Part shown: piece after piece, positions 1 through 56,051 of the stretch | Position numbering within the stretch: the first letter of the stretch is position 1 | Layout: each line of letters opens with the position of its first letter | Virus record (IMG/VR): IMGVR_UViG_3300028837_002527 | Location: 1-64,000 of that record | Strand: one strand, 5' to 3' | Length of the DNA: 64,000 nucleotides | DNA from: a virus | The notes under the pieces: generated by a model | Databases searched by the model: none | The model's input: the letters and a program-made list of their open reading frames with translations, nothing else | Told to the model about the DNA's origin: nothing | Translations under genes and position numbers: made by a program

Positions 1-75
1 TTTTTTTTTCAAGCAGAAGACGGCATACGAGATAGCGTAGCGTCTCGTGGGCTCGGAGATGTGTATAAGAGACAG
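1..75. other. Illumina P7 / Nextera adapter (assembly artefact)
   Basis: Nine T residues are followed by the Illumina P7 flow-cell oligo (10-33), an 8-base index (34-41), the Nextera transposase adapter (42-56) and the 19-bp mosaic end (57-75). This is sequencing library material, not phage DNA. The index matches, from memory, Nextera i7 N709 in the adapter orientation. Phage sequence starts at about 76, so the contig end is a read end and not a natural genome terminus. Confidence 0.98.
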
Positions 76-3817: not shown

Positions 3818-4336
3818 ATGGGAGAAAGACATAAAAACGATGATAAGACGATAAGGCTCTTTCGTGATGATTATCGTTTTTTATCTAATTTTCATATGCA
3901 CATGTTTTTTTATGGAAGATATAGATGCGCTTCAGCAGAGCATATTTATCAAGCTATGAAAGCACGATTGGAAAGAGATAAACAAAGAATTTTAAGACTT
4001 GGCACTCCTAAACTTGCAAAGATTGCAGGGCAATATACGAATTTAAAATGTCGAATGGATTGGGGAGAAGTTAAAGTTGATATAATGTATGGTATATTAA
4101 GAGCAAAGTTTAAAATACCAGTATTAAGAAAGAAATTAATTGATACATTTCCTAAAAAGCTGATAGAAGAAAACTGGTGGCATGATAATTTTTGGGGTAG
4201 ATGTACATGTAGTAAGTGTAAAAATAAAGGAAAGAATATGCTTGGAAAGCTATTAATGAAAGTAAGAGATAAAGTAATGAAAGTAAAAAAGAAAAAGAAA
4301 GTAAAAAGGAGGAAGAATGGAGAAGGAAAGAATTAA
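3818..4336 (+). CDS. NADAR (YbiA/DUF1768) family ADP-ribose glycosidase
   Basis: 172 residues. The NADAR fold covers about residues 13-155: FRDDYRFLSNFH, CASAEHIYQAMKA, a central MDWGEVKVDIMYGILRAKF, and the C-terminal WWHDNFWGRC with GKNMLGKLLMKVR. Family members cleave N-glycosidic bonds, and some NADAR proteins remove ADP-ribose from guanine placed by DarT-type toxins. In a phage this suggests defence reversal (inference). A basic tail (KKKKKVKRRK) follows the domain. A GAGGTGA site precedes the start. Confidence 0.8.
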   Translation: MGERHKNDDKTIRLFRDDYRFLSNFHMHMFFYGRYRCASAEHIYQAMKARLERDKQRILRLGTPKLAKIAGQYTNLKCRMDWGEVKVDIMYGILRAKFKIPVLRKKLIDTFPKKLIEENWWHDNFWGRCTCSKCKNKGKNMLGKLLMKVRDKVMKVKKKKKVKRRKNGEGKN

Positions 4337-5946: not shown

Positions 5947-5982
5947 GGGGAGCTTTGTCAGACCTATTGGTATGATGTAATG
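5947..5982 (-). promoter_or_regulatory. Copy D of the 36-nt dispersed motif (minus orientation)
   Basis: The reverse complement aligns without gaps to three other intergenic copies (44745-44780, 53776-53811, 54920-54955), sharing the ATCATACCA core and the AAGCTCCCC end. This copy is inverted relative to the genes and lacks the flanking left stem seen in the others. It lies in a 220-bp gap between 5898 and 6119. Confidence 0.65.
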
Positions 5983-6118: not shown

Positions 6119-6358
6119 ATGGAAGAATTGTCAAAGAAACGTATTAAAAAATTAATTAAAGAAGCTCTTAAGGACGATAAGCTTCATAAAAGGTACAGGA
6201 ACTTAATAGAAAATCTCTTTAAAATCATTAAGGATTATTCTAATTTGGTACAAGGATTGTTTGAAGTACTTGAAGATGCAGGTTTAATGGACGAAAAGGA
6301 ATTACCAGAAAAAGAGTGGAAAGCTCCTACTTTCTATAACTCTGAGGACTTTGAATAG
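6119..6358 (+). CDS. Small acidic/basic helical protein
   Basis: 79 residues: a basic N-terminal helix (KKRIKKLIKEALKDDKLHKR), a hydrophobic-faced middle and an acidic C-terminus (DEKELPEKEW). AAGGAGG at 6106-6112 selects ATG 6119 over the upstream in-frame ATG at 6026. Not recognised. Confidence 0.65.
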   Translation: MEELSKKRIKKLIKEALKDDKLHKRYRNLIENLFKIIKDYSNLVQGLFEVLEDAGLMDEKELPEKEWKAPTFYNSEDFE

Positions 6359-23305: not shown

Positions 23306-25090
23306 ATGGCAGTAACATACTGGGATGTAGGTGACGATAAACCTTATACTACACTAACAGCAGTTAGAGCAGCTATTCTTGCTGCTACACCAGCTGGTGG
23401 TGGTAATCTTGCTGGTATGGGTGAACAGAGAATACGAGTATTTGCTAAAGTAACTACGGGTAATATATATATGGAGTTTGTTGACTTTTCAACAAATTTT
23501 TTTGGCGAAACAGCAAATGATTTTATTAGCATGTATGCAATGGTTTTACATTATGGCATGTTAAATCAAGGTATACAGATATTCTATAGTGGAGCCGCTA
23601 AAGCTTTTGCTATTCTTCCAGGACCATACAGCAGAATTGTTGGATTTCGAGTTAAATGTATAAATCTTAATCCTTTTGGTTTAAGTGCTCCTATTTATAT
23701 ACTTAATGTTAATAATGTATTAATTGATGAATGTATTATTCAAGATAGTACACAGACTGCTAGTTCTGATGTTAAAGGTATTAATATCTTTAATTCACCA
23801 AATGTAGAAATTCGCAATTTTATTATTAACAATCTATATGCAAGTAGCGACGTTGTTCATGGCGTAGTTAGTCAGCAGTCGAATGGAACTGTGATAAGCA
23901 ATGGAACGATATGGAATCTATCACCCGGGCCACATGCTTATGGTATTTATGCCAATTTAAACTTTGGAACTTGTATTATTCGTAATGTTTATGCAGGTAA
24001 TTGTGGCGCTGGAACTGGAGGTCAGGCATTTAAAAAGCACATGGGGACTTTTAACATAGATTATTGTACATCAGATGATGGGTCTGCCGCTCTTTATGGT
24101 GGAGCACACAATAAAACGAATAAGGCTGGAGCAAACCAATTTGTTTCTATTGTGAGTGGAAGTGAAGATTTTAGACCTTTAATTGGTTCGGATATTTGGA
24201 GAGCAGCTGAAAGTTTATATGGACAATTTCAAAGTGATGTAGCAGGAAAGAAACGACCAACATGGGGTCCTTGGACAATTGGAGCATTTAGAGAACAAGA
24301 AAAAAACGGACAAATTCAAATATGGGACTGTCTTGACTTAATAGATTCAATGGTAGCACAATCAATAGAATTTGCTAAAAAATTAGGTACTGGAGTTGAA
24401 GCAGCTTCCGCTTCTCTCGGTGCACAAAATAATATTAATAGAATAAAAGCAAATGCTGACTCTGATGTTCAGTTAGCTTTATTAAAAGCGTTTAAAAAAC
24501 AGATGGTAAAAGTAACAACTCATCCTAATGCTTTTGAGGGATTTTATACTTCAGCAAAAGCATTAAAAAATCATCTTGGTAATATTGGACATTATTTAGA
24601 AGAAAACTTACAAAGAGCGCCATTTCAATTTAAGACAATGGTTGAGTTATTTGCAATAGAAAAAATAAAATCAGAAAGTATTTTTTCTCCTGTAATTTCT
24701 AATATGGGAGAGATTACGATAGATGATGTAGACCCTCCAGGAGGTGGAGGTGCTACGAGTACGTTTGTGGATGGAAACGCAATAAATATTCGTCATTACT
24801 ATGCAAGTAATTTAGTTTTGCATAAAACTACTGCTTCTTCAGGAGTTGGAGACCCATTTACTATTACTGTAACACTTACAAAGTGGGACATGACCTCTGA
24901 AGATAAAGATGTAGCAGTTGATGGACTTCATATAATTAATTTAGAATATGATATTGGTACACATGGAACAGATATGTATATTGACATTACTGATATGATA
25001 ATTAAGGTTGGAGCTGAACCTGTTAATGCAAATACAATTAATCAGAAATGGAAAGGAATGTCAGAACTTGAGAGAAGTGTTGCCTTATAA
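23306..25090 (+). CDS. Virion protein: beta-helix domain fused to a duplicated structural domain
   Basis: 594 residues. Residues 1-335 form a right-handed beta-helix-like domain (ILNVNNVLIDECIIQDS, NVEIRNFIINNLYASSD) beginning with the module start seen again at 35805. Residues about 338-594 are paralogous to the whole next gene: shared GTGVEAASASLGAQNNI, MGEITIDDVDPPGG and TINQKWKGMSELER. Function unknown; the position between tail terminator and tail tube suggests a virion surface or tail decoration protein. A tail sheath is not indicated. Confidence 0.65.
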   Translation: MAVTYWDVGDDKPYTTLTAVRAAILAATPAGGGNLAGMGEQRIRVFAKVTTGNIYMEFVDFSTNFFGETANDFISMYAMVLHYGMLNQGIQIFYSGAAKAFAILPGPYSRIVGFRVKCINLNPFGLSAPIYILNVNNVLIDECIIQDSTQTASSDVKGINIFNSPNVEIRNFIINNLYASSDVVHGVVSQQSNGTVISNGTIWNLSPGPHAYGIYANLNFGTCIIRNVYAGNCGAGTGGQAFKKHMGTFNIDYCTSDDGSAALYGGAHNKTNKAGANQFVSIVSGSEDFRPLIGSDIWRAAESLYGQFQSDVAGKKRPTWGPWTIGAFREQEKNGQIQIWDCLDLIDSMVAQSIEFAKKLGTGVEAASASLGAQNNINRIKANADSDVQLALLKAFKKQMVKVTTHPNAFEGFYTSAKALKNHLGNIGHYLEENLQRAPFQFKTMVELFAIEKIKSESIFSPVISNMGEITIDDVDPPGGGGATSTFVDGNAINIRHYYASNLVLHKTTASSGVGDPFTITVTLTKWDMTSEDKDVAVDGLHIINLEYDIGTHGTDMYIDITDMIIKVGAEPVNANTINQKWKGMSELERSVAL

Positions 25091-25114
25091 GGATATAGAA
25101 ATAAGGAGAAAAAC

Positions 25115-25906
25115 ATGGGAACTATTGCAAAGGCGGACTTTATATTATTGGCAGATTCAATTGCAGCACAATCCTATGAACTTGACCAGAAATTAGGAAC
25201 AGGAATTGAAGCAGCTACAGCATCTCTTGGAGCGACAAACAATATTGCTAGGATAGTTGCTTATGCTGATGCAGAAGTCATTGATGATTTGATTGAAGGA
25301 TTTAGAAATCAATTAGCTGAATGTTTGTCAATTCCTGTTGCATTTGATAGGTTTGTAACTTCAATGAGAGCACTTTCCAGACATGTTGGTGGCATGAGTG
25401 CTTATTTAGTTGCACAAGATGAAAGGGTTGGCCCTGATTTTAAAGTTGCATGTGAGATGTTAGCAATTGAAATATTAACACCAGCAGCAACATTTTCTCC
25501 TGTTGTTCCGGCAATGGGAGAGATTACAATAGATGCTGTAGACCCTCCGGGTGGAGCAGGTGCTTCGTCTACTTTTGTAGATGGCAGTGCAATTGATATT
25601 ACTCGGTATTATGCAAGTAATTTAGTTCTTGAAAAAACAACTGCAGCTGTTGCAGCTGACGCACTTACTCTTACTGTATCGTGCACAAAATGGGATACAA
25701 CTTCTGAAGATAAAGACGTACCAGTTGATGCAAGTGATGCAATTAATAATGAAGATGATATTGGTGTACATGGAACTGATATGTACACTGATATTACTGA
25801 TATTGTTATTAAAGCTGGTAGCGAACCTACAGTTGCTACTACAATTAATCAGAAGTGGAAGGGTAAATCTGAAGTTGAAAGAGTGATTGATACAGCTGAC
25901 CTTTAA
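25115..25906 (+). CDS. Structural protein, paralogue of the preceding C-terminal domain
   Basis: 263 residues with a helical N-terminal half (ADSIAAQSYELDQKLGTGIE) and a beta-sandwich-like C-terminal half with GEITIDAVDPPGGAGASSTF and YASNLVLEKTTA. Close similarity to residues 338-594 of the preceding protein, visible also at DNA level, shows tandem duplication. A strong AAGGAG site predicts abundant expression, as expected for a virion component. Confidence 0.65.
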   Translation: MGTIAKADFILLADSIAAQSYELDQKLGTGIEAATASLGATNNIARIVAYADAEVIDDLIEGFRNQLAECLSIPVAFDRFVTSMRALSRHVGGMSAYLVAQDERVGPDFKVACEMLAIEILTPAATFSPVVPAMGEITIDAVDPPGGAGASSTFVDGSAIDITRYYASNLVLEKTTAAVAADALTLTVSCTKWDTTSEDKDVPVDASDAINNEDDIGVHGTDMYTDITDIVIKAGSEPTVATTINQKWKGKSEVERVIDTADL

Positions 25907-38581: not shown

Positions 38582-41500
38582 ATGGCTGAAGAAATTTTTG
38601 GAACTAAATTGAGATATGTTGAAATGTTAAATCTTCAATGTCCAGCAAGTAAGATTTGTGAACTTGGTACAATGCTCAGAAAAGCGGAGAGACGTGTAGG
38701 TCCTCCAGTAACAGATATTGCTGCTTTGAAGTTAGTTGATGCAAATAATCGTTATGATGGCAAAGTAATTATGGTAAAGAATCGTGGTTTTTACGTATTT
38801 GATGCTGAAAGCACTGAAACTGAAGATTTAGAAAGAATAGTAGCTCCTACTGTAGGAACTGGTCGTTGGCACGCTGCTGGTGGCCAAGAATCAGGTGGCG
38901 GAATTATTTGGGAACGTGGTGTTATTGATAAGGATATTGTAGATTCAGCAGGAGCTGTAGCTACTGAAGGAAATCGTTATCTTATTGGTGGTGTTGGTCT
39001 TAATGATTGGGCTGGACATAATTGGGATATTACAGAATACACTTCAGATGCTGAATGGATATTTACTGAACCAAGAGAAGGAATGGTAGTTCATATTGCA
39101 GACGAAGATAAAATTATGATTTACAATGGAACTAGTTGGACTGACTTTGGTTTAGTAGTTCAAATTAATAGAAAAAATATTGCATGGGTTGATAAGGATG
39201 GAAGTGATACTACTGGACAAGTTGGTAGTTTTACTCGTCCATATTTAACTATTGGAGCAGCACTTACTGCAATAACTACAGCAGCTGCAGATGATAGATT
39301 TGCAATTATTGTTGGTTCTGGTGAATATGCTGAAAATGTCGTGTGTAAACCATTTGTTGATTTATATCTTGGTACAGCGAGAATTATTCCTGCTGCTGGA
39401 GATGGAATTAAATTTGATGATGACATGTCTGTTCATGATGGAATAGTTTCAGCAGCAGCTGGATATTGTTTTGATGTAACTGCTGTTGGTGTTACTTCTG
39501 CAAATTGTTACAATACTCAATATGCTGCTGGTAAAGTATTAAAAAGTGGTGGTGGAGCATTTGTTAATTTTTACAATATTCAACCACTTCCAGGAGCAGC
39601 AATTGCTACCTTTGCTGATGTTGCTGGTGGAGCATTGGGTGGAATATTTTATGATTCACAACTTGATGGTGCAGCAGGTACAGATGATGAAATTCAACTT
39701 TATGGTTGTTATTGCAATGGAGCTTGGACTACTACAGATACTATTATAGCTAATGCAACTACTTTTGTAGGAGCATTTAGTTTAACTACTCCTTCAGCTG
39801 CAAGTCATTTTCAAGGATGTAATTTTGTTGCAAGTCTTACTGCGCTTGAAGGTTCTGCAATATTTGAGGGTTGTCAAATAGGAACTTCAATTACTGTTAA
39901 TCATGCAAATGCAGATATAATATTTAATGGTTGTTATGTAGGAACTACATATACTGTTACACTTGGAATAGCGCAGTTTAATGGAGGCGGCATTAGTACA
40001 GATGTGTCTTTTGCGGGTACTAATGTAAATAGTTTTAATGGAGTTCGAGTTGGTGGAACTACCACTATTCTTGAAGCAACACTTCACGCTGAAGGATGTA
40101 GATTTGTTGGAGCTTTTCTTGTAAATCATGCAAATGCAATATTTGTTGGAAATGGTAATAAATTTGATGACACTTACACTGTTACACTTGGGGAAGCGAC
40201 TTCAGATGGTTCTACAATAACTGGAGCAGTTTCTCTTGAAGGAACAAATGTAAATCGTTTTGGTGGCTGCACATTAGAAAGTTCTTTAACAATACTTGAA
40301 GCAACTGCAATAGCAACTGGTGGAAGCATTGAAGGAGCAGTAACAGTTAATCATGCTAATGCTGTGCTTGAAAGTTCTGGCTGTCATTTTGAGAGTACTT
40401 ATACTATTACTCTTGGAACTGGAAATATTGAAGGCGGGAGAATTCAAGGAGCAACTTCAATAGCTGGAACTAATACTAATAGATTAACAAGTACGATGTT
40501 GGCAGCTGTTACAGTACTTGAAGCAACTGTAATTATTACTGGTAGTTCAATAACTGGTGCACTACTTGCAAATCATGCAAATGCTGTACTACGAGTTGAA
40601 GGTACAGATTTTGCAGGAACATTTACAGTTACATTGGGAGTTGCAACTGTAAATGGAGGTTTAATTGTAGGTGCAACTTCACTTGAAGGTACCAATGCTA
40701 ACTTCTTTGAAGGTGTACGATTTGGTGATACTTTTACACTTCTTGAAGCTACTGCAAATCTTGCGGGATGTTCAGTAGCAGGTGCTGTACTTGTAAATCA
40801 TGCTGCTGCTATTTTAGTTGCTACTGGTAGTGATTTTCAAAATACTTTCACAGTTACACTTGGAGAAGCAACTGTTGATGGCACAATTATTTCTGGTGCA
40901 GTTTCCGTTGAAGGAACTAATACAAACCGACTTGCCGGATGTACACTCGAAGGTGCTTTGACAGTTCTTGAAGCAACTGTGATTTTAGCTGGAAGTTCAG
41001 TTGAAGGTGCAGTAGATACTAATCATGCAAGTGCAGTGTTATATGACATCGGTTCAATACTTGAGAGTACTCTAACTACTACACTTGGAGCAGCAGTTGT
41101 TTCAGGCGGAAGTATTAGAGGTGCAATTGATGTAGCCGCTGGTGCAATTGAGATGTCCAATGACACTGACTTGGGTGGTGCTATTACAGGTGCTCCTACT
41201 TATCTTGGAACTCCAATAAGAGATATTGGCGGAGTTGGGCTTACCTTTATTCGATTTACTGGTGTTCCACTTGCAAACGATACTTTTACTATTGATGGTA
41301 GAATTCACATGTTTGATGGTGGTGGAGACGTTCCTATTGTTCGTGTTCCGGGTAATGTGGATGGGACACTTGATAATGCAGTAACAGCTATTAATGCTGA
41401 TGCAGCTGGTGTTGGTGTTACTTATGCAATTAAAGCTGCTGGTGCAGGAGCTGCTAACGGAGTTCTAATAATTGTCCATGAGACTGTAGCGACTGACTTT

Positions 41501-44700: not shown

Positions 44701-44782
44701 CTGGGGAGATTTTAGATGATTTTCTTTATAGAAGGTAGCCAAGACGTTGATTTATACCACGGGGACAAAGATAGCTCCCCAG
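44701..44782 (+). promoter_or_regulatory. Copy C of the dispersed structured motif
   Basis: The 36-nt core (44745-44780) shares TTTATACCAC and AGCTCCCC with the other copies. CTGGGGAG (44701-44708) pairs perfectly with CTCCCCAG (44775-44782) to close the loop. AGCTCC (44773-44778) can instead pair with GGAGCT (44785-44790), giving two mutually exclusive folds upstream of the initiator gene. Confidence 0.6.
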
Positions 44783-44797
44783 GAGGAGCTTTCTGGC

Positions 44798-44840
44798 GCA
44801 CAGGGGATATGAATATGGGTATATTTAATATCCCCTGTGC
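44798..44840 (+). promoter_or_regulatory. Perfect 13-bp hairpin before the initiator gene
   Basis: GCACAGGGGATAT (44798-44810) pairs fully with ATATCCCCTGTGC (44828-44840) around a 17-base loop. It lacks a T tract, so it is not a standard terminator. It ends four bases before the TGGAG ribosome binding site of the gene at 44858 and could control its translation or bind a regulator. Confidence 0.8.
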
Positions 44841-44857
44841 AATGTGGAGATAAATTT

Positions 44858-46006
44858 ATGAAAAAAATAAAGAAAGTAAAAAAAGATAAAAAGTTTGAGT
44901 TTACAATAGATAGATTGGAAGAGTTACTTATATTTAACAAGACTGGTAATTATTCAAGTAATTTAATGAGACTGCTTGCTTATATAATCATTAAATTTAA
45001 TGGAAGCAAGTCTATTCAACTTTGGTACCAAGAAGATAGATGGTTGAAAAGAAATTTTTTTAAAACCAAATTTAATCGTTGTTTAGGATTTTTAAAACAA
45101 AAAGATATTATTCAGACTATTTTTTCCAGAAAGAAAACTTATAGAATAAATTATAGACTTTTAGGAGAATTGATTACTAACGATTTGGACATTGATATTT
45201 TGTTAGAGATTAAAGAACATTATGAGGAAATGTTTGATTTTTTAGCAGAAAGAAGAAAAAATACAAAGTTAATTAAATTACAAGATGAAAAATTGAGTGA
45301 GAGCGAGAGAAAATCGGTCAAGGAAAAAGGAGTAAACTCCTTTTCCTTTTTAACTCCTAAACACTCTAACTCTCTAATAAATAATAATATAATAGCTAAT
45401 AGAGATAAGGGGGGGATATATAAGGGGGGGAAAGGAGATGTTAAGTTAAAGAAGATAAAAAAGATAAAAGGAATAGAAAGTGGGAGTGATTTTAGAAAGG
45501 AAACAAGAAAAAGAGAAGGATTTTATAAGGGTAGTAATAAGAATAAAAAGTTAAGAAAGGACTCAACTGTATTGTATGGTGAGTATAGGCGCAATCCTTC
45601 AGAGAATCCTAAGTTAAATTCTTGGAGAAATAGAAATATTAGAGATTGGAGACCTATTGAGTTTCTTGGATATTATATTTATTTATATAGGGAAGAAGTA
45701 GGACGTGAAAATGTTGCAATGCAAGATGACCAAACTTACATTAAATTTAAAAATGCAATTAGAAAAATATTACGTAATTGGTTTGACAATGATAGAAAAG
45801 AAATGAAAGAATATTTGGAGTGGGCAGTTTATTACTTTACAAATGAGATGGATGAAAGATACATGCCTTCAGTAAATCTTATTTTTGATTTATATGGTAA
45901 AGTAAGTTGGGTATTTGATACTTATATTGGAACAAAAGTAAAAAGAAAAAAGAAAAAAAGAAAAGATAGCGACTGGGCATCTAACGATAAGTGGAAAGGA
46001 AATTAA
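44858..46006 (+). CDS. Replication initiator (winged-helix, DnaD/O-like)
   Basis: 382 residues. A basic N-terminus (MKKIKKVKKDKKFEF) leads into a winged-helix domain (about 14-115: LMRLLAYIIIKFNGSKSIQL, FNRCLGFLKQKDIIQTIF). A low-complexity linker (about 150-225) precedes a helical C-terminal domain (RNWFDNDRKEMKEYLEWAVY). Followed by loader, helicase and primase, it fits an origin-binding initiator. The linker DNA contains a strong hairpin, an AT tract and two G7 runs, an origin candidate. ATG 44858 has TGGAG upstream. Confidence 0.7.
   Translation: MKKIKKVKKDKKFEFTIDRLEELLIFNKTGNYSSNLMRLLAYIIIKFNGSKSIQLWYQEDRWLKRNFFKTKFNRCLGFLKQKDIIQTIFSRKKTYRINYRLLGELITNDLDIDILLEIKEHYEEMFDFLAERRKNTKLIKLQDEKLSESERKSVKEKGVNSFSFLTPKHSNSLINNNIIANRDKGGIYKGGKGDVKLKKIKKIKGIESGSDFRKETRKREGFYKGSNKNKKLRKDSTVLYGEYRRNPSENPKLNSWRNRNIRDWRPIEFLGYYIYLYREEVGRENVAMQDDQTYIKFKNAIRKILRNWFDNDRKEMKEYLEWAVYYFTNEMDERYMPSVNLIFDLYGKVSWVFDTYIGTKVKRKKKKRKDSDWASNDKWKGN
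45322..45440 (+). other. Possible replication origin inside the initiator gene
   Basis: A hairpin (GGAAAAAGGAGT and ACTCCTTTTCC around AA, 45322-45346) is followed by a pyrimidine-rich segment with repeated ACTC units, a pure AT stretch (about 45377-45395), two G7 runs and AAAGGAG. Read as protein it is a low-complexity linker. Lambda and several Firmicutes phages keep their origin inside the initiator gene. The region could also be a fossil intergenic spacer. Confidence 0.4.
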
Positions 46007-49843: not shown

Positions 49844-50344
49844 ATGAGAGGATATTATCGTACATATTTGGAATATAGAGGTGAATATTCAAATAGAAAA
49901 TTACAGAAAGAATGGGATAGAAAATTACAGAAAGAATGGGAGTTTGGTTATTGTATTAAAAGAGTTGTTGAAGAAAATATAATAAATACTCTTGTTCTTG
50001 GAGGAGATAAGGAAAAGGCAAAAAAGAATATAGGAAAATTTTATAGTTACATTGTTTGTCGGGGATACAAAAACAAAAGTTACAAAATAATTAAAGAAAG
50101 ATATTTTAGCAGAAAATGGAAAGCAAAAGACTGGTGCTACAAAGAATATTGTAAAAAGAAAGGAATTGAATTTGAATCTTTACATCATGTTTCAGAAAAA
50201 AGAAAGGAGCAAGGCAAAAAACTTTACAAAAAACTTCAGGAAAAGAAACAGCAAAAACAAACAAATCGTGCCAGATTATCTGGTAAAATAATTCGTAGAA
50301 TTATTAGAAGAAAGGAGTCACACAATGACGAAAGCAGTATCTGA
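49844..50344 (+). CDS. Hypothetical basic protein
   Basis: 166 residues, Lys/Arg-rich, with a tandem RKLQKEWDRKLQKEWEF near the N-terminus and a basic C-terminus (GKIIRRIIRRK). AAAAGGGG precedes the ATG. It overlaps the next gene by 20 bases and so belongs to the AAA+ module operon. Function unknown. Confidence 0.65.
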   Translation: MRGYYRTYLEYRGEYSNRKLQKEWDRKLQKEWEFGYCIKRVVEENIINTLVLGGDKEKAKKNIGKFYSYIVCRGYKNKSYKIIKERYFSRKWKAKDWCYKEYCKKKGIEFESLHHVSEKRKEQGKKLYKKLQEKKQQKQTNRARLSGKIIRRIIRRKESHNDESSI

Positions 50345-51401: not shown

Positions 51402-52964
51402 ATGTCTTTTAAAGAAGAGTTTAAAGCTCACATAAGTGCAGGTTATCCTCTTTTGTATGTAAAAACGTACGAAGAGAAACGTGCACAAATCACAATAAGA
51501 GAAGTTGCTAAGAGTATTCCAAAACAATGTTTTTTTTGGACAGTAACAGTAGGTCTTTGTGAAGTGGAGTTGAAGGCTGAGGGAACAGGTGAACCTATTC
51601 CAGAGACAATATCTCCAGATGATTTAGTTCGGCATCTGGCAGAAAGTTTTAAGGAGGACCTTGCAATTGTTGTTCTTTTTGATTATCACGAATTTCTTAA
51701 TGACCCAGTAATTAAAAGGAGAATAAGAGATTTGGAAGGAAAGTTTAAAGAGAAAGGAAATAATTTAGTTTTTCTTTCTCCAATTTTAAAAATTCCAGAT
51801 GAGCTTCAGAAGGATATGACATACTTAGAATTTGAGCTTCCAAATCAAAAAGAGCTTGAAAAAGTTGTTAAGGAAATTTCAAAGGATAATGATGTAAAAA
51901 TTGGAAAGGATAAAGTTGAAGCAATTGTAGATTCAATCAAAGGATTGACTACAATGGAAACAGAAAATGCTGTTTCACTTTCTATTTACAAACACAATGG
52001 TATTATTCCAAATGAATTAAGAAAGAGTAAAGTTCAGATAATAAAGAAATCAGGAATACTTGAATATCGTGAAGCAGATACAAACATGAATGATGTAGGA
52101 GGATTTGGAAAGTTAAAAGAATGGCTCCAATTTAGAAAAAGAGCCTTCACAAAAGAGGCAAGAGAATACGGAATTGTTCCTCCAAAAGGGGCTTTACTTC
52201 TTGGATTGCCAGGATGTGGAAAGTCTTTGGTAGCAAAATCAATATCAAGTGAATGGGGTTATCCTCTACTCATTCTTGATATTGGTAAAATATTTGGAAG
52301 TCTTGTTGGACAATCTGAAGAAAACACAAGGCAAGCTCTTCAATTAGCAGAAGCAGTAGCACCATGTATTATGATGGTAGATGAAATAGAAAAAGGGCTT
52401 GCTGGTTCTGCTTCAGGTGGAAAACACGATTCAGGTGTTACTTCTCGTGTTTTTGGAACGATTCTTAATTGGATGCAAGAGAGACAGGCAGATGTCTTTG
52501 TTGTGGCAACTGCAAATCAAATTAAAATGCTTCCACCTGAATTTTTAAGAAAAGGTAGATTTGATGAAATCTTTTTTGTTGACCTTCCTTTTCCAAACGA
52601 AAGAGAAGAAATATTTAAGATACATTTAAAGAAAAGGAAGAGGAAGCCGAATAGCTTTAATATAGATGAATTGGTGGAAGCGACAGAGAAGTTTACTGGC
52701 TCTGAAATAGAAGAAGCGATAAATTCAGCTTTATTTTACTCTTTTGAAAAGAAAAGAGAATTAAAAACAGAAGATATTTTAAGAGCGGTAGAATCAACAA
52801 CGCCACTGTCTAAAACAATGGCAGAAGATTTAAACATTCTTCGTGACTGGGCCAGAGATAGAGCAGTTAATGTTTCTGGTAAAAGGATTAAGAAGATTAA
52901 AAAATTAAGTGGTAAAAGAAGGATTCAAAGGTCAAAAGACGAAGATTCATTTAACCTTAATTAG
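51402..52964 (+). CDS. AAA+ ATPase, Ycf46-like
   Basis: 520 residues. The N-terminal domain (1-210), starting FKAHISAGYPLLYVKTYEEK, matches the degenerate ATPase half of Ycf46. The active half has Walker A LLGLPGCGKSLVAKS (about 265-278), Walker B CIMMVDEIEKG (about 322) and the sensor/arginine region ATANQIKMLPPEFLRKGRFDE. The C-terminal helical lid and basic tail (KRIKKIKKLSGKR) follow. Ycf46 is conserved in cyanobacteria and plastids with poorly known function. Confidence 0.8.
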   Translation: MSFKEEFKAHISAGYPLLYVKTYEEKRAQITIREVAKSIPKQCFFWTVTVGLCEVELKAEGTGEPIPETISPDDLVRHLAESFKEDLAIVVLFDYHEFLNDPVIKRRIRDLEGKFKEKGNNLVFLSPILKIPDELQKDMTYLEFELPNQKELEKVVKEISKDNDVKIGKDKVEAIVDSIKGLTTMETENAVSLSIYKHNGIIPNELRKSKVQIIKKSGILEYREADTNMNDVGGFGKLKEWLQFRKRAFTKEAREYGIVPPKGALLLGLPGCGKSLVAKSISSEWGYPLLILDIGKIFGSLVGQSEENTRQALQLAEAVAPCIMMVDEIEKGLAGSASGGKHDSGVTSRVFGTILNWMQERQADVFVVATANQIKMLPPEFLRKGRFDEIFFVDLPFPNEREEIFKIHLKKRKRKPNSFNIDELVEATEKFTGSEIEEAINSALFYSFEKKRELKTEDILRAVESTTPLSKTMAEDLNILRDWARDRAVNVSGKRIKKIKKLSGKRRIQRSKDEDSFNLN

Positions 52965-52978
52965 AAAGGAGAAGTAAC

Positions 52979-53371
52979 ATGTCTCATTGGACAACAGTCA
53001 AGACAAAAATTAGTGTTAAGAACATAGGAGCGTTGAAAGACGCTCTTAAAGAACTTTTTCCTGAAAATGAGATTCAGGAAAATTCTACAGTGAGAGGTTA
53101 TCGAAGTCCTCAAACTGCACGTCTTGTTTTGAGGGGGAAACGAGGAAATTATGACATTGGATTTACTGAGGGTGAAAAAGGAACACTTTCAATTGTAACA
53201 GATTGGTGGGGGGCCGCTCGAGAGTTTGGGCAACGAGAAAATACTATTAATAAGATTAAACAAGGTTATTCCAAGCATGTGATAGTGAGACAGGCAAAAA
53301 CAAAAGGTTTTTTTATAAAAGAAACTAAAACTAAAGAAGAAGGTATTCGCCTTCATCTTACAAAGTACTAA
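52979..53371 (+). CDS. DUF1257 / Ycf35-like protein
   Basis: 130 residues. The N-terminal MSHWTTVKTKISVKNIGALK and the centre (TARLVLRGKRGNYDIGFTEG, LSIVTDWWGA) are characteristic of DUF1257 (Ycf35). The C-terminal half has YSKHVIVRQAKTKGF. In cyanobacteria this family sits near Ycf46-type and DUF2997 genes; the same set is present here. AAAGGAG upstream. Confidence 0.75.
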   Translation: MSHWTTVKTKISVKNIGALKDALKELFPENEIQENSTVRGYRSPQTARLVLRGKRGNYDIGFTEGEKGTLSIVTDWWGAAREFGQRENTINKIKQGYSKHVIVRQAKTKGFFIKETKTKEEGIRLHLTKY

Positions 53372-53382
53372 GGAGGTGTACA

Positions 53383-53574
53383 GTGGCAAAAAAAGAAATC
53401 ATCGTTGATATTGATAAGACTGGAGAAGTTCAGATTGAAGCAAGGGGATATTCAGGTAATGAATGTCTTAAAGCAACAAAGTCCATTGAACAAGCACTTG
53501 GTGGAGGAGTAGAAGAAAGAAAGATGAAAAAGAATCACGAAATTCGTGTAGAAAGAGAAAGTCTTAATGAGTAA
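53383..53574 (+). CDS. DUF2997-like small protein
   Basis: 63 residues, GTG start with AAGGAGG. KEIIVDIDKTGEVQIEARGY followed by GNECLKATKSIEQALG matches the DUF2997 pattern, a beta hairpin and helix. It follows the DUF1257 gene, as in cyanobacterial neighbourhoods. A related protein follows immediately. Confidence 0.75.
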   Translation: MAKKEIIVDIDKTGEVQIEARGYSGNECLKATKSIEQALGGGVEERKMKKNHEIRVERESLNE

Positions 53575-53734: not shown

Positions 53735-53753
53735 AGTAATAGTAAATCAAAAT

Positions 53754-53812
53754 AGGGGAGTCCTGATAAAAAATTCATTGATTCATACCAATGGACATAT
53801 CAGGGCTCTTCT
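53754..53812 (+). promoter_or_regulatory. Copy A of the dispersed structured motif
   Basis: Left arm 53754-53768 pairs over 15 bp (three G-U) with 53798-53812 around a 29-nt loop. The loop holds CATTGATTCATACCA and a small inner stem (CATTG/CAATG). The loop sequence and length match copy B at 54903-54952 while the stems differ by compensatory changes. It precedes the small membrane gene at 53845. Confidence 0.7.
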
Positions 53813-53844
53813 ATGGGTTTTAAATCTTAAAGAAAGGGGGAAAC

Positions 53845-53973
53845 ATGAAATCATTATTTGAATGGCTGCATTATACTAATGCAGAATTATTTGGATTTGT
53901 ATCATATTTATATATTTTCTCTTTGATTATTGGAATGATTTTCTCAATTAAATTCAAGAGAGAAAGAGAATAA
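53845..53973 (+). CDS. Small membrane protein
   Basis: 42 residues with one transmembrane helix (GFVSYLYIFSLIIGMIFSI) and a basic end (KFKREREN-like). AAAGGGGG lies upstream. Too short for a default gene call. Function unknown; it lies downstream of copy A of the structured motif. Confidence 0.6.
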   Translation: MKSLFEWLHYTNAELFGFVSYLYIFSLIIGMIFSIKFKRERE

Positions 53974-54001
53974 TTTGTATGAAAGAAAAAAAAAAAAGAG
54001 A

Positions 54002-54029
54002 TTGAAATTTAAAATTTTTTCTATAAAAT
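54002..54029 (+). promoter_or_regulatory. Candidate promoter
   Basis: TTGAAA (54002-54007) and TAAAAT (54024-54029) with a 16-base spacer. It lies in the 114-bp gap before the gene at 54088. In such AT-rich DNA, chance matches are common. Confidence 0.4.
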
Positions 54030-54087
54030 ATTATCATTCTATTTATAGGAGTCTAACACTTTTTTACAGGAGTCAATGGAGGTGAGT

Positions 54088-54828
54088 ATGGTCAATCTAC
54101 TGTTTGAAAAAATGAGTAAAAAACTAAGGAAATTTATTGAATATAATTCTTGGAAATTTTCAAATTTTTCAAGATATAATGATAAGTGTGATTTTGAAAA
54201 TATTGCACTCATTGTGATTTGGGAGAAGATTCCAGATTTTAGGTATGTGTGTGGCATATGTGAGAAAAAGTTCAGAGAAGAAAAAGCGTATAGAAAGCAT
54301 AAGCATAGTAAGTATCAGCAGGGAAAAAAGATTAAATTTAAAAAGCCAAAAATTATTTTAGAGTCGTATCTCATGTCGCGAATTCTTTCAAAATATCAAG
54401 CAGTGTTGAAGGAAGAAAATGCTTTAAAAAGGTATCCAAGTAATAGGCAAGTTTTTCAAATGAACAATTTAGACTCTACTTTTGAGATTAGTAACGAGAG
54501 TAATAACAAAGATTTTAATAGGTCTGTAAAAACTGATAAATTGGGGGGACGTCAAAATGCAGATGATTTTAGGATTAATAGATTACATTTAAAATTTGAT
54601 GAGCATGCAGAATATGACTTAATGGAAGTAATAGAGTTAGTGTCAAAGGACTTTACTGACACTGAAATTGAGGTAATGAATATGTTGCTTAACAAGTATA
54701 GAATTTATCAGATTATTCTTGGTTTTGAAGAAAAGAACAGAGGAGATATTCATACTGTTAAAAAAGCTGTAAGAAACATTCGTAAGTACATAAAAACATA
54801 TTTAGAAAAAATAGAGAATGTTGTATAA
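54088..54828 (+). CDS. C2H2-like zinc-finger protein
   Basis: 246 residues. The N-terminal helical region precedes a C2H2-type finger (VCGICEKKFREEKAYRKHKH, about 54-73). The C-terminal part (about 165-246) is helical (DLMEVIELVSKDFTDTEIEV). ATG 54088 is chosen because GGAGG at 54078-54082 is well spaced; ATG 54076 overlaps that site. Probably a DNA- or RNA-binding regulator. Confidence 0.65.
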   Translation: MVNLLFEKMSKKLRKFIEYNSWKFSNFSRYNDKCDFENIALIVIWEKIPDFRYVCGICEKKFREEKAYRKHKHSKYQQGKKIKFKKPKIILESYLMSRILSKYQAVLKEENALKRYPSNRQVFQMNNLDSTFEISNESNNKDFNRSVKTDKLGGRQNADDFRINRLHLKFDEHAEYDLMEVIELVSKDFTDTEIEVMNMLLNKYRIYQIILGFEEKNRGDIHTVKKAVRNIRKYIKTYLEKIENVV

Positions 54829-54902
54829 CTTTTTATATAGTATATCTATGATGATTCTTTGAAAGTAAGATTTTATTCAAGTTAAATCTGATATGATTTA
54901 AA

Positions 54903-54952
54903 GAGTTTGATAAGAAAATCATTAAATCATACCAAGGAACATATTAAAGCTC
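54903..54952 (+). promoter_or_regulatory. Copy B of the dispersed structured motif
   Basis: GAGTTTGATA (54903-54912) pairs with TATTAAAGCTC (54942-54952) with one bulge, closing a 29-nt loop nearly identical to copy A. AGCTCC at 54949-54954 can alternatively pair with downstream GGAGCT copies (54969-54985), suggesting switching structures before the gene at 55062. Confidence 0.7.
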
Positions 54953-55061
54953 CCCTATGGGCTTTTAAGGAGCTCCAGAGGAGCTGATTTTGAGTGAAAG
55001 GAGACATGGTTGTCTCATAAAAATTTTCGGTCCACAATTCAAAGGAATGGAGGTAAGTAAC

Positions 55062-56051
55062 ATGGACATGAAAGTACTCAAAAAAACAGCTAAAGATTTT
55101 GGAATTAAGGTCTTAAAAAAAGACGATGAGGAATCTTTAGCAGAGAAAATTCGGGGTTACTTTAGTGAGAAGGATTTTGAGCTTGATGCTCAATGTCCTG
55201 AGTGTGGAGAGGATATTCCAGACGAGGATATGTGTCCTTTTTGCGGGGTGTCTTTTGAGGATGAGGATGAGGATGAGGATGAGGATGAGGATGAGGATGA
55301 GGATGAGGATGAGGATGAGGATGAGGATGACGAGGAAGATGAGGATGAGGATGAGGATGAGGATGAGGATGAGGATGAGGATGAGGATGAAAAACCTAAA
55401 AAGAAAAGAGGTAGACCTAAAAAAGAATCAAAAAAGACAGAAAAGGAAGGAAAGAAGAAAAAAGGGAAAACTGGAAGAAAAAAGGGTTCTCGTAGTTTGA
55501 AGTCAACAATTAAGAAAAAAGGAAAAGAGGCAAGAGGAGCAAAAAAAGGTTCTTTCAATTATAAGGATGCAGTTGAAAAGGTATCCGATATTGTGGAAAA
55601 GGAAGGATATGAAATTAAGGAAAGAGCCAACTGGAATGGTTATTTCCTTGATGGGCTTAAAGTATTTCATGTAGCAAAATCTACAAGGTCGTTTCAACTG
55701 ATGATTACAGTTGAAGGATTTGTTGCTCCAAAGAAAGGTGAATACAGAGAATTTACCAATGAAGAAATTACAAGTGGACACTTAGCTACTTGTATTGGAA
55801 TTCTAAAAACAACAAGTCTTGACGTTGTTGAATCTGCGGTTGCACAGTTAACAAAAATTGCTAAAAAGATTCTTAAGGAAAGGAAGGAAGAAAAGAAAGA
55901 AAAGAAAGAATCAAAAAAGAAGTCAAAGAAAAAAGATACAGAAAAAAAGAAGTCAAAGAAAAAAGATACAGAAAAAAAGAAGTCAAAGAAAAAAGATACA
56001 GAAAAAAAGAAGTCAAAGAAAAAAGATACAGAAAAAAAAGAAGGATATTAA
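55062..56051 (+). CDS. Zinc-ribbon protein with acidic and basic repeat tracts
   Basis: 329 residues. A short SAP-like N-terminus (MKVLKKTAKDFGIKVLKKDD) leads to a zinc ribbon (CPECGEDIPDEDMCPFC, about 46-62). About 45 Asp/Glu residues follow, encoded by GATGAG repeats, then a basic linker, a folded domain (about 165-275: GYEIKERANWNGYFLDGLKV) and four KKKSKKKDTE units. Alternating charge blocks suggest a nucleoid or protein-condensing role. GGAGG at 55049 selects ATG 55062; an in-frame GTG/TTG upstream is possible. Confidence 0.7.
   Translation: MDMKVLKKTAKDFGIKVLKKDDEESLAEKIRGYFSEKDFELDAQCPECGEDIPDEDMCPFCGVSFEDEDEDEDEDEDEDEDEDEDEDEDDEEDEDEDEDEDEDEDEDEDEKPKKKRGRPKKESKKTEKEGKKKKGKTGRKKGSRSLKSTIKKKGKEARGAKKGSFNYKDAVEKVSDIVEKEGYEIKERANWNGYFLDGLKVFHVAKSTRSFQLMITVEGFVAPKKGEYREFTNEEITSGHLATCIGILKTTSLDVVESAVAQLTKIAKKILKERKEEKKEKKESKKKSKKKDTEKKKSKKKDTEKKKSKKKDTEKKKSKKKDTEKKEGY
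55257..55390 (+). repeat. GATGAG hexanucleotide microsatellite
   Basis: About 22 copies of GATGAG, interrupted once near 55328-55340 (GACGAGGAAGAT). It encodes alternating Asp-Glu. The six-base unit keeps frame, so copy-number change alters only tract length. Confidence 0.95.
55921..56040 (+). repeat. Four 30-bp tandem repeats
   Basis: Identical 30-bp units at 55921, 55951, 55981 and 56011 (last two bases of the final copy differ), encoding the ten-residue unit with KKKSKKKDTE. Near-perfect identity points to recent expansion. Confidence 0.95.

Follow-up and report, generated by a model that had tools for sequence, protein, structure and literature searches.

A bipartite 36-nt element in four intergenic copies in a tailed phage genome, conserved in sequence and lacking a shared fold

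The analysed window comprises bases 1-64000 of a virus record of 68,767 bp and contains the genome of a tailed phage. Genes for the terminase, portal protein, major head protein, tape measure protein, DnaB helicase and primase were recognised, in addition to genes encoding a DNA polymerase III alpha-type polymerase, Thy1 and thymidylate kinase, and every long ORF accepted as a gene runs rightward. The left arm encodes a NADAR-domain protein (3818-4336), and the tail-region genes at 39833-41126 and 24343-25882 feature internal 225-nt repeats and a tandem pair of ~730-nt stretches, which are 69% alike and lie ~810 nt apart. Consecutive genes for an AAA ATPase, DUF1257 and DUF2997 occupy positions 51402-53574 and, together with a DUF3150 gene located earlier (at 50325), constitute a gene set that is unusual in phage. 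ORF 55062-56051 encodes a protein that combines a zinc-ribbon-like motif at its N-terminus with a long acidic (GATGAG)n tract and lysine-rich 30-nt repeats. The record opens (window 1-75) with an assembly artefact in the form of an Illumina Nextera P7 adapter (CAAGCAGAAGACGGCATACGAGAT...AGATGTGTATAAGAGACAG), and an identical contig (G001) opens with the same adapter carrying a different index. The record shares 100% identity with two other IMG/VR contigs, over 45.4 and 29.2 kb; as such they add no variation, and they carry two copies of the element described here, confirming copies A and D on separate contigs.

Four copies of a 36-nt block align in a single ungapped register, as noted in a preliminary description of this DNA (its copies A, B and C correspond to copies B, C and A here). 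Copy A (44745-44780, + strand) lies 78 nt upstream of the start of ORF 44858-46006, copy B (53776-53811, + strand) 34 nt upstream of a 42-aa ORF (53845-53973) and copy C (54920-54955, + strand) ~107 nt upstream of ORF 55062-56051. Copy D (5947-5982, - strand), which is reversed with respect to all genes, is located 137 nt upstream of ORF 6119-6358. When each copy was held out and scored with a matrix of the other three, copies A, B, C and D reached 26.7, 31.5, 37.2 and 32.5 bits, respectively, compared to 9-16 bits for the next-ranking site of the 68,767-bp record. Pairwise identity among the copies is 22-27/36, and 16 of the 36 columns are invariant (C1, T3, T4, T8, A10-A15, A27, G30-C33 and C36), where our own calculation from composition (~32% G+C) predicts about one such column among the 36 by chance. 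These include the TT (3-4), ATACCA (10-15) and GCTC (30-33) motifs previously singled out as common to all copies. Positions 16-26 contain no invariant column, and the element is bipartite, consisting of a left block (CrTTnnnTyATACCA) and a right block (rGCTCyyC) with centres ~20 bp apart. After the 36-nt block, a TAT is common to copies B, C and D, which in B and C reads CTATGGG, and the latter two copies agree over 61 ungapped nt.

All four copies are intergenic, which has a probability of ~1e-5 by chance given that intergenic DNA accounts for 3,689 of 68,692 bases (5%) as counted with our own gene set. Copy A overlaps a possible 45-aa ORF (44716-44853), which was dismissed as a gene since both the element and a perfect 13-bp inverted repeat fall within it. 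This inverted repeat (GCACAGGGGATAT/ATATCCCCTGTGC, 44798-44840) immediately precedes the ribosome binding site of that downstream ORF (44858-46006) and is not followed by a T-run. Adjoining copy C at a distance of 32 bp, an inverted partial second copy of the left block (CTTTAAATCATATCAG, 54888-54903, - strand) overlaps with the extended -10-like + strand sequence TGATATGAT. Neither the record nor the 2.8 kb by which a second contig extends it to the left contains a fifth copy. A protein-coding explanation was rejected, as the frame YQ.T..SSP seen in the copies is broken by stops in C and D and third positions are conserved; likewise, CsrA-like ANGGA sites were discarded as an explanation, being found in B and C only.

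The element had been proposed to represent a structured cis-regulatory RNA family or, alternatively, a set of asymmetric operator sites. Copy B is associated with a 17-bp hairpin on the + strand (53752-53814; arms 53752-53768 and 53798-53814), which encloses a 29-nt loop, reaches a z of about -6.7 in the tightest window and involves significant complementarity of the right block to upstream DNA (p 0.0005). Due to three G-U pairs on the + strand, it is much more stable on this strand (-29.7 kcal/mol) than on the - strand (-19.3 kcal/mol). The copy B hairpin is real, and an RNA hairpin is probably formed there as well. Copy C features a weaker related stem (GAGTTTGATA/TATTAAAGCTC, 54903-54952, + strand) with a bulged 10-bp partner (p 0.06), which differs from that of copy B by two C-G to U-A changes. 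Several structural details of the preliminary description are borne out, including the equal length (29 nt) of the loops in B (53769-53797) and in C (54913-54941), the AGCTCC/GGAGCT alternative hairpin options and the perfect 8-bp pairing of copy A (CTGGGGAG/CTCCCCAG, 44701-44782, + strand; arms 44701-44708 and 44775-44782; p 0.01). For copy D, no pairing partner was found in either direction (p 0.6 and 0.8). Folding z values in ~100-nt windows are +0.2 for A, -5.4 for B, -3.3 for C and +0.6 for D, with A and D near zero in most windows. Strong folding is thereby confined to copy B, the partners in A and C being weak.

When the copy B structure was imposed on the alignment of all four copies, 59.6% of cells were paired vs 57.7% in shuffles, and four pairs were changed on both sides vs 3.0 in shuffles, 170 of 500 of which reached four. 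A common secondary structure kept by compensatory changes, as characteristic of a cis-regulatory RNA family, is not present: the copies share no fold, and neither pairing nor covariation rises above shuffles. The right block GCTCyyC is kept in copy D without any partner (as GCTCCCC, which in copy C has at most a weak upstream partner), and it is therefore the sequence, not the pairing, that is conserved. The 3' arm thus persists even where a 5' partner is missing. Equally strong conservation of the stem bases themselves had been named in the preliminary description as pointing to a DNA site. One strongly folding copy can thus make a sequence motif resemble an RNA family, which calls for caution.

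A role as cis-acting leader RNA, in which transcripts start just upstream of the element and a 5' stem-loop displaying AUACCA is bound by a protein or alters access to the ribosome binding site, appears doubtful. The hairpin of copy B with its preference for the + strand, the common loop length and the two C-G to U-A changes of B and C, and the perfect partner of copy A speak for such an RNA. Furthermore, the extended -10-like TGATATGAT (54889-54897) ends 5 nt before the copy C stem and would start a transcript close to it; however, given how AT-rich the window is, promoter-like matches are no commoner than in shuffles. Neither copy A nor copy D folds, the partners in the alternative hairpins differ from copy to copy, and copy D is antisense to every long ORF accepted as a gene, all of which, in addition to the absence of pairing and covariation in excess of shuffles, argues against a leader RNA. 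Moreover, a covariance model of the four copies, searched against the window and 57 phage loci (0.91 Mb), recovered only those copies and the complement of copy B, with no homologue in the 0.9 Mb of related phage loci. That the element is a phage-specific RNA, with a 5'-terminal AUACCA stem-loop recognised by a phage protein and the antisense copy D acting as a trans RNA, is unlikely. An RNA role for copy B, and perhaps copy C, in addition to a DNA site is possible.

The simplest and best account, to which we give about even odds, is that the 36-nt block serves as an asymmetric site on the DNA recognised by a single sequence-specific regulator. This reading builds on the conservation of sequence instead of pairing, on the presence of all four copies in the 5% of intergenic DNA at 34-137 nt before start codons, and on the two-block pattern at helical spacing with an extra inverted left block near copy C. 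In addition, copy D is fully conserved despite its reversal, which suits a DNA site but sits poorly with a leader RNA, as all accepted long ORFs run the opposite way. Of the two readings originally offered, the asymmetric operator accordingly fits the conservation, intergenic placement and reversed copy, whereas the RNA family fails the tests applied to it. As an operator, the element would sit in intergenic control regions before four transcription units, and the ~20-bp distance between its conserved blocks (about two helical turns) would place these on the same helix face, where a putative regulator could grip them with two domains or two subunits. Such binding may repress or activate the adjacent promoter, and a precedent exists in phage repressors that use two domains to bind asymmetric sites (PMC9283540). 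In copy B, and perhaps in copy C, the same DNA may also encode an RNA hairpin as a local addition, functioning as a 5' leader hairpin or being terminator-like.

The putative regulator is most likely encoded by the phage itself. Pfam and PHROGs searches recognised no regulator gene in the proteins scanned, which counts against the operator reading. ORF 54088-54828, located between copies B and C, contains a weak C2H2-like finger (E 0.003, below the curated cut-off), and its AlphaFold model is unusable (pLDDT 40); this weak hint makes it only a lead as a regulator candidate. The very significant hairpin of copy B, with G-U pairs on one strand only, also speaks against an operator and points to RNA, and all four copies derive from one virus lineage and thus permit no phylogenetic test.

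On the complementary strand the element reads GGGGAGCT - N - TGGTATRAW, which resembles an extended -10 box ~17-18 nt from a conserved box and might function as a promoter for a phage-modified or alternative polymerase. TGGTAT is followed by R-A-W in 4/4 copies, with exact TGnTATRAT in copies C and D, and the second block lies at a promoter-like spacing. Nevertheless, we regard a promoter as distinctly unlikely, since transcription from copies A-C would head away from the genes downstream and be antisense to those upstream, no -10-like hexamer is conserved on the + strand and neither a sigma factor nor an RNA polymerase gene was recognised in the proteins scanned. Furthermore, GGGGAG is not known as a sigma-70 -35 box. 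The copies could also mark the borders of an intergenic cassette that moves or duplicates, having spread by recombination without a regulatory role, in which case B and C would border a small acquired gene cassette (53845-54828). These two copies are indeed 61-nt direct repeats on either side of two orphan genes, and phage genes with short bordering repeats have been documented (PMC4351075). However, the DNA flanking copies A and D is not shared with the other copies, and two sharp conserved blocks around a freely varying middle require selection acting on the sites in addition to common descent; we thus hold a cassette origin to be very improbable.

In agreement with the preliminary description, the element has no Rfam match and appears to be undescribed. 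The Rfam gathering threshold was reached in the window by tRNA-Leu only, and E-value scans of the four regions returned chance-level scores only. Exact and degenerate DNA patterns searched in IMG/VR identified this virus only, plus chance matches of <=22 bits, mostly apparently inside genes. A pattern fitting all four copies yielded 10 scattered matches in 84,980 genomes, nine of them inside long ORFs and the sole intergenic one in an archaeal MAG (L152); these were taken as chance because their number is at or below the ~15 matches that we estimate to occur by chance in these genomes. One further candidate, in L004, contains CATACCA within a GGGAGCTT/AAGCTCCC hairpin and was likewise taken as chance (22 bits, no Rfam match). 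Searches for relatives with the DNA polymerase and AAA ATPase returned identities of 38% at most, and the terminase search revealed one true relative (L159, IMGVR_UViG_3300035698_019872; 45% identical), a 23.7-kb contig. Its structural module is collinear with window positions 10.7-26 kb, and its left arm is unrelated and carries leftward genes in its place, which points to modular exchange at the terminase boundary. No copy of the element was detected in this contig (best score 9), the aligned part of which comprises the structural module alone, so that it cannot test copies A-C. None of the collections searched yielded a homologue of the element from outside this virus.

If the element is an operator, it marks the genes under one putative regulator, namely the units starting from ~6119, 44858, 53845 and 55062, and could serve as bait for finding its protein. 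It would also add to the dispersed asymmetric control sites that have so far been best described in mycobacteriophages. Like the stoperators of cluster A mycobacteriophages (L5, TipsytheTRex), the element is asymmetric, repeated in intergenic spaces of a tailed phage and mostly in one orientation relative to transcription. Stoperators are 13 bp in length, occur in more than twenty copies and are bound by a recognisable immunity repressor (PMC9283540). In contrast, this phage shares the asymmetric intergenic site but, in place of >20 transcription-oriented 13-bp sites, contains four 36-nt copies, one of which is reversed, and no repressor was recognised in the proteins scanned. The SAS and extended SAS (ESAS) of cluster K mycobacteriophages are similarly asymmetric repeats before a subset of genes with unproven function; several genomes contain a single reversed copy, as observed here, and some SAS have upstream inverted repeats, as does copy C. 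The SAS is a 13-bp sequence (GGGATAGGAGCCC) located 3-7 bp from the start codon, where it coincides with the ribosome binding site and holds the Shine-Dalgarno sequence (PMC3203893), whereas the element is unrelated in sequence and lies 34-137 nt upstream. The 17-bp repeats of cluster O mycobacteriophages (Corndog) are likewise dispersed, conserved, confined to one phage group and not known in function. They exhibit perfect dyad symmetry and number more than 30, one in three being located inside genes (PMC4351075), while the element is asymmetric and present in four copies, none inside genes. On present evidence, the element resembles the stoperator/SAS class in kind and, because of its differences in size, number, start-codon distance and symmetry, is a member of none of these groups. 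It is ordinary in kind, as a putative dispersed phage regulatory site, and new in sequence.
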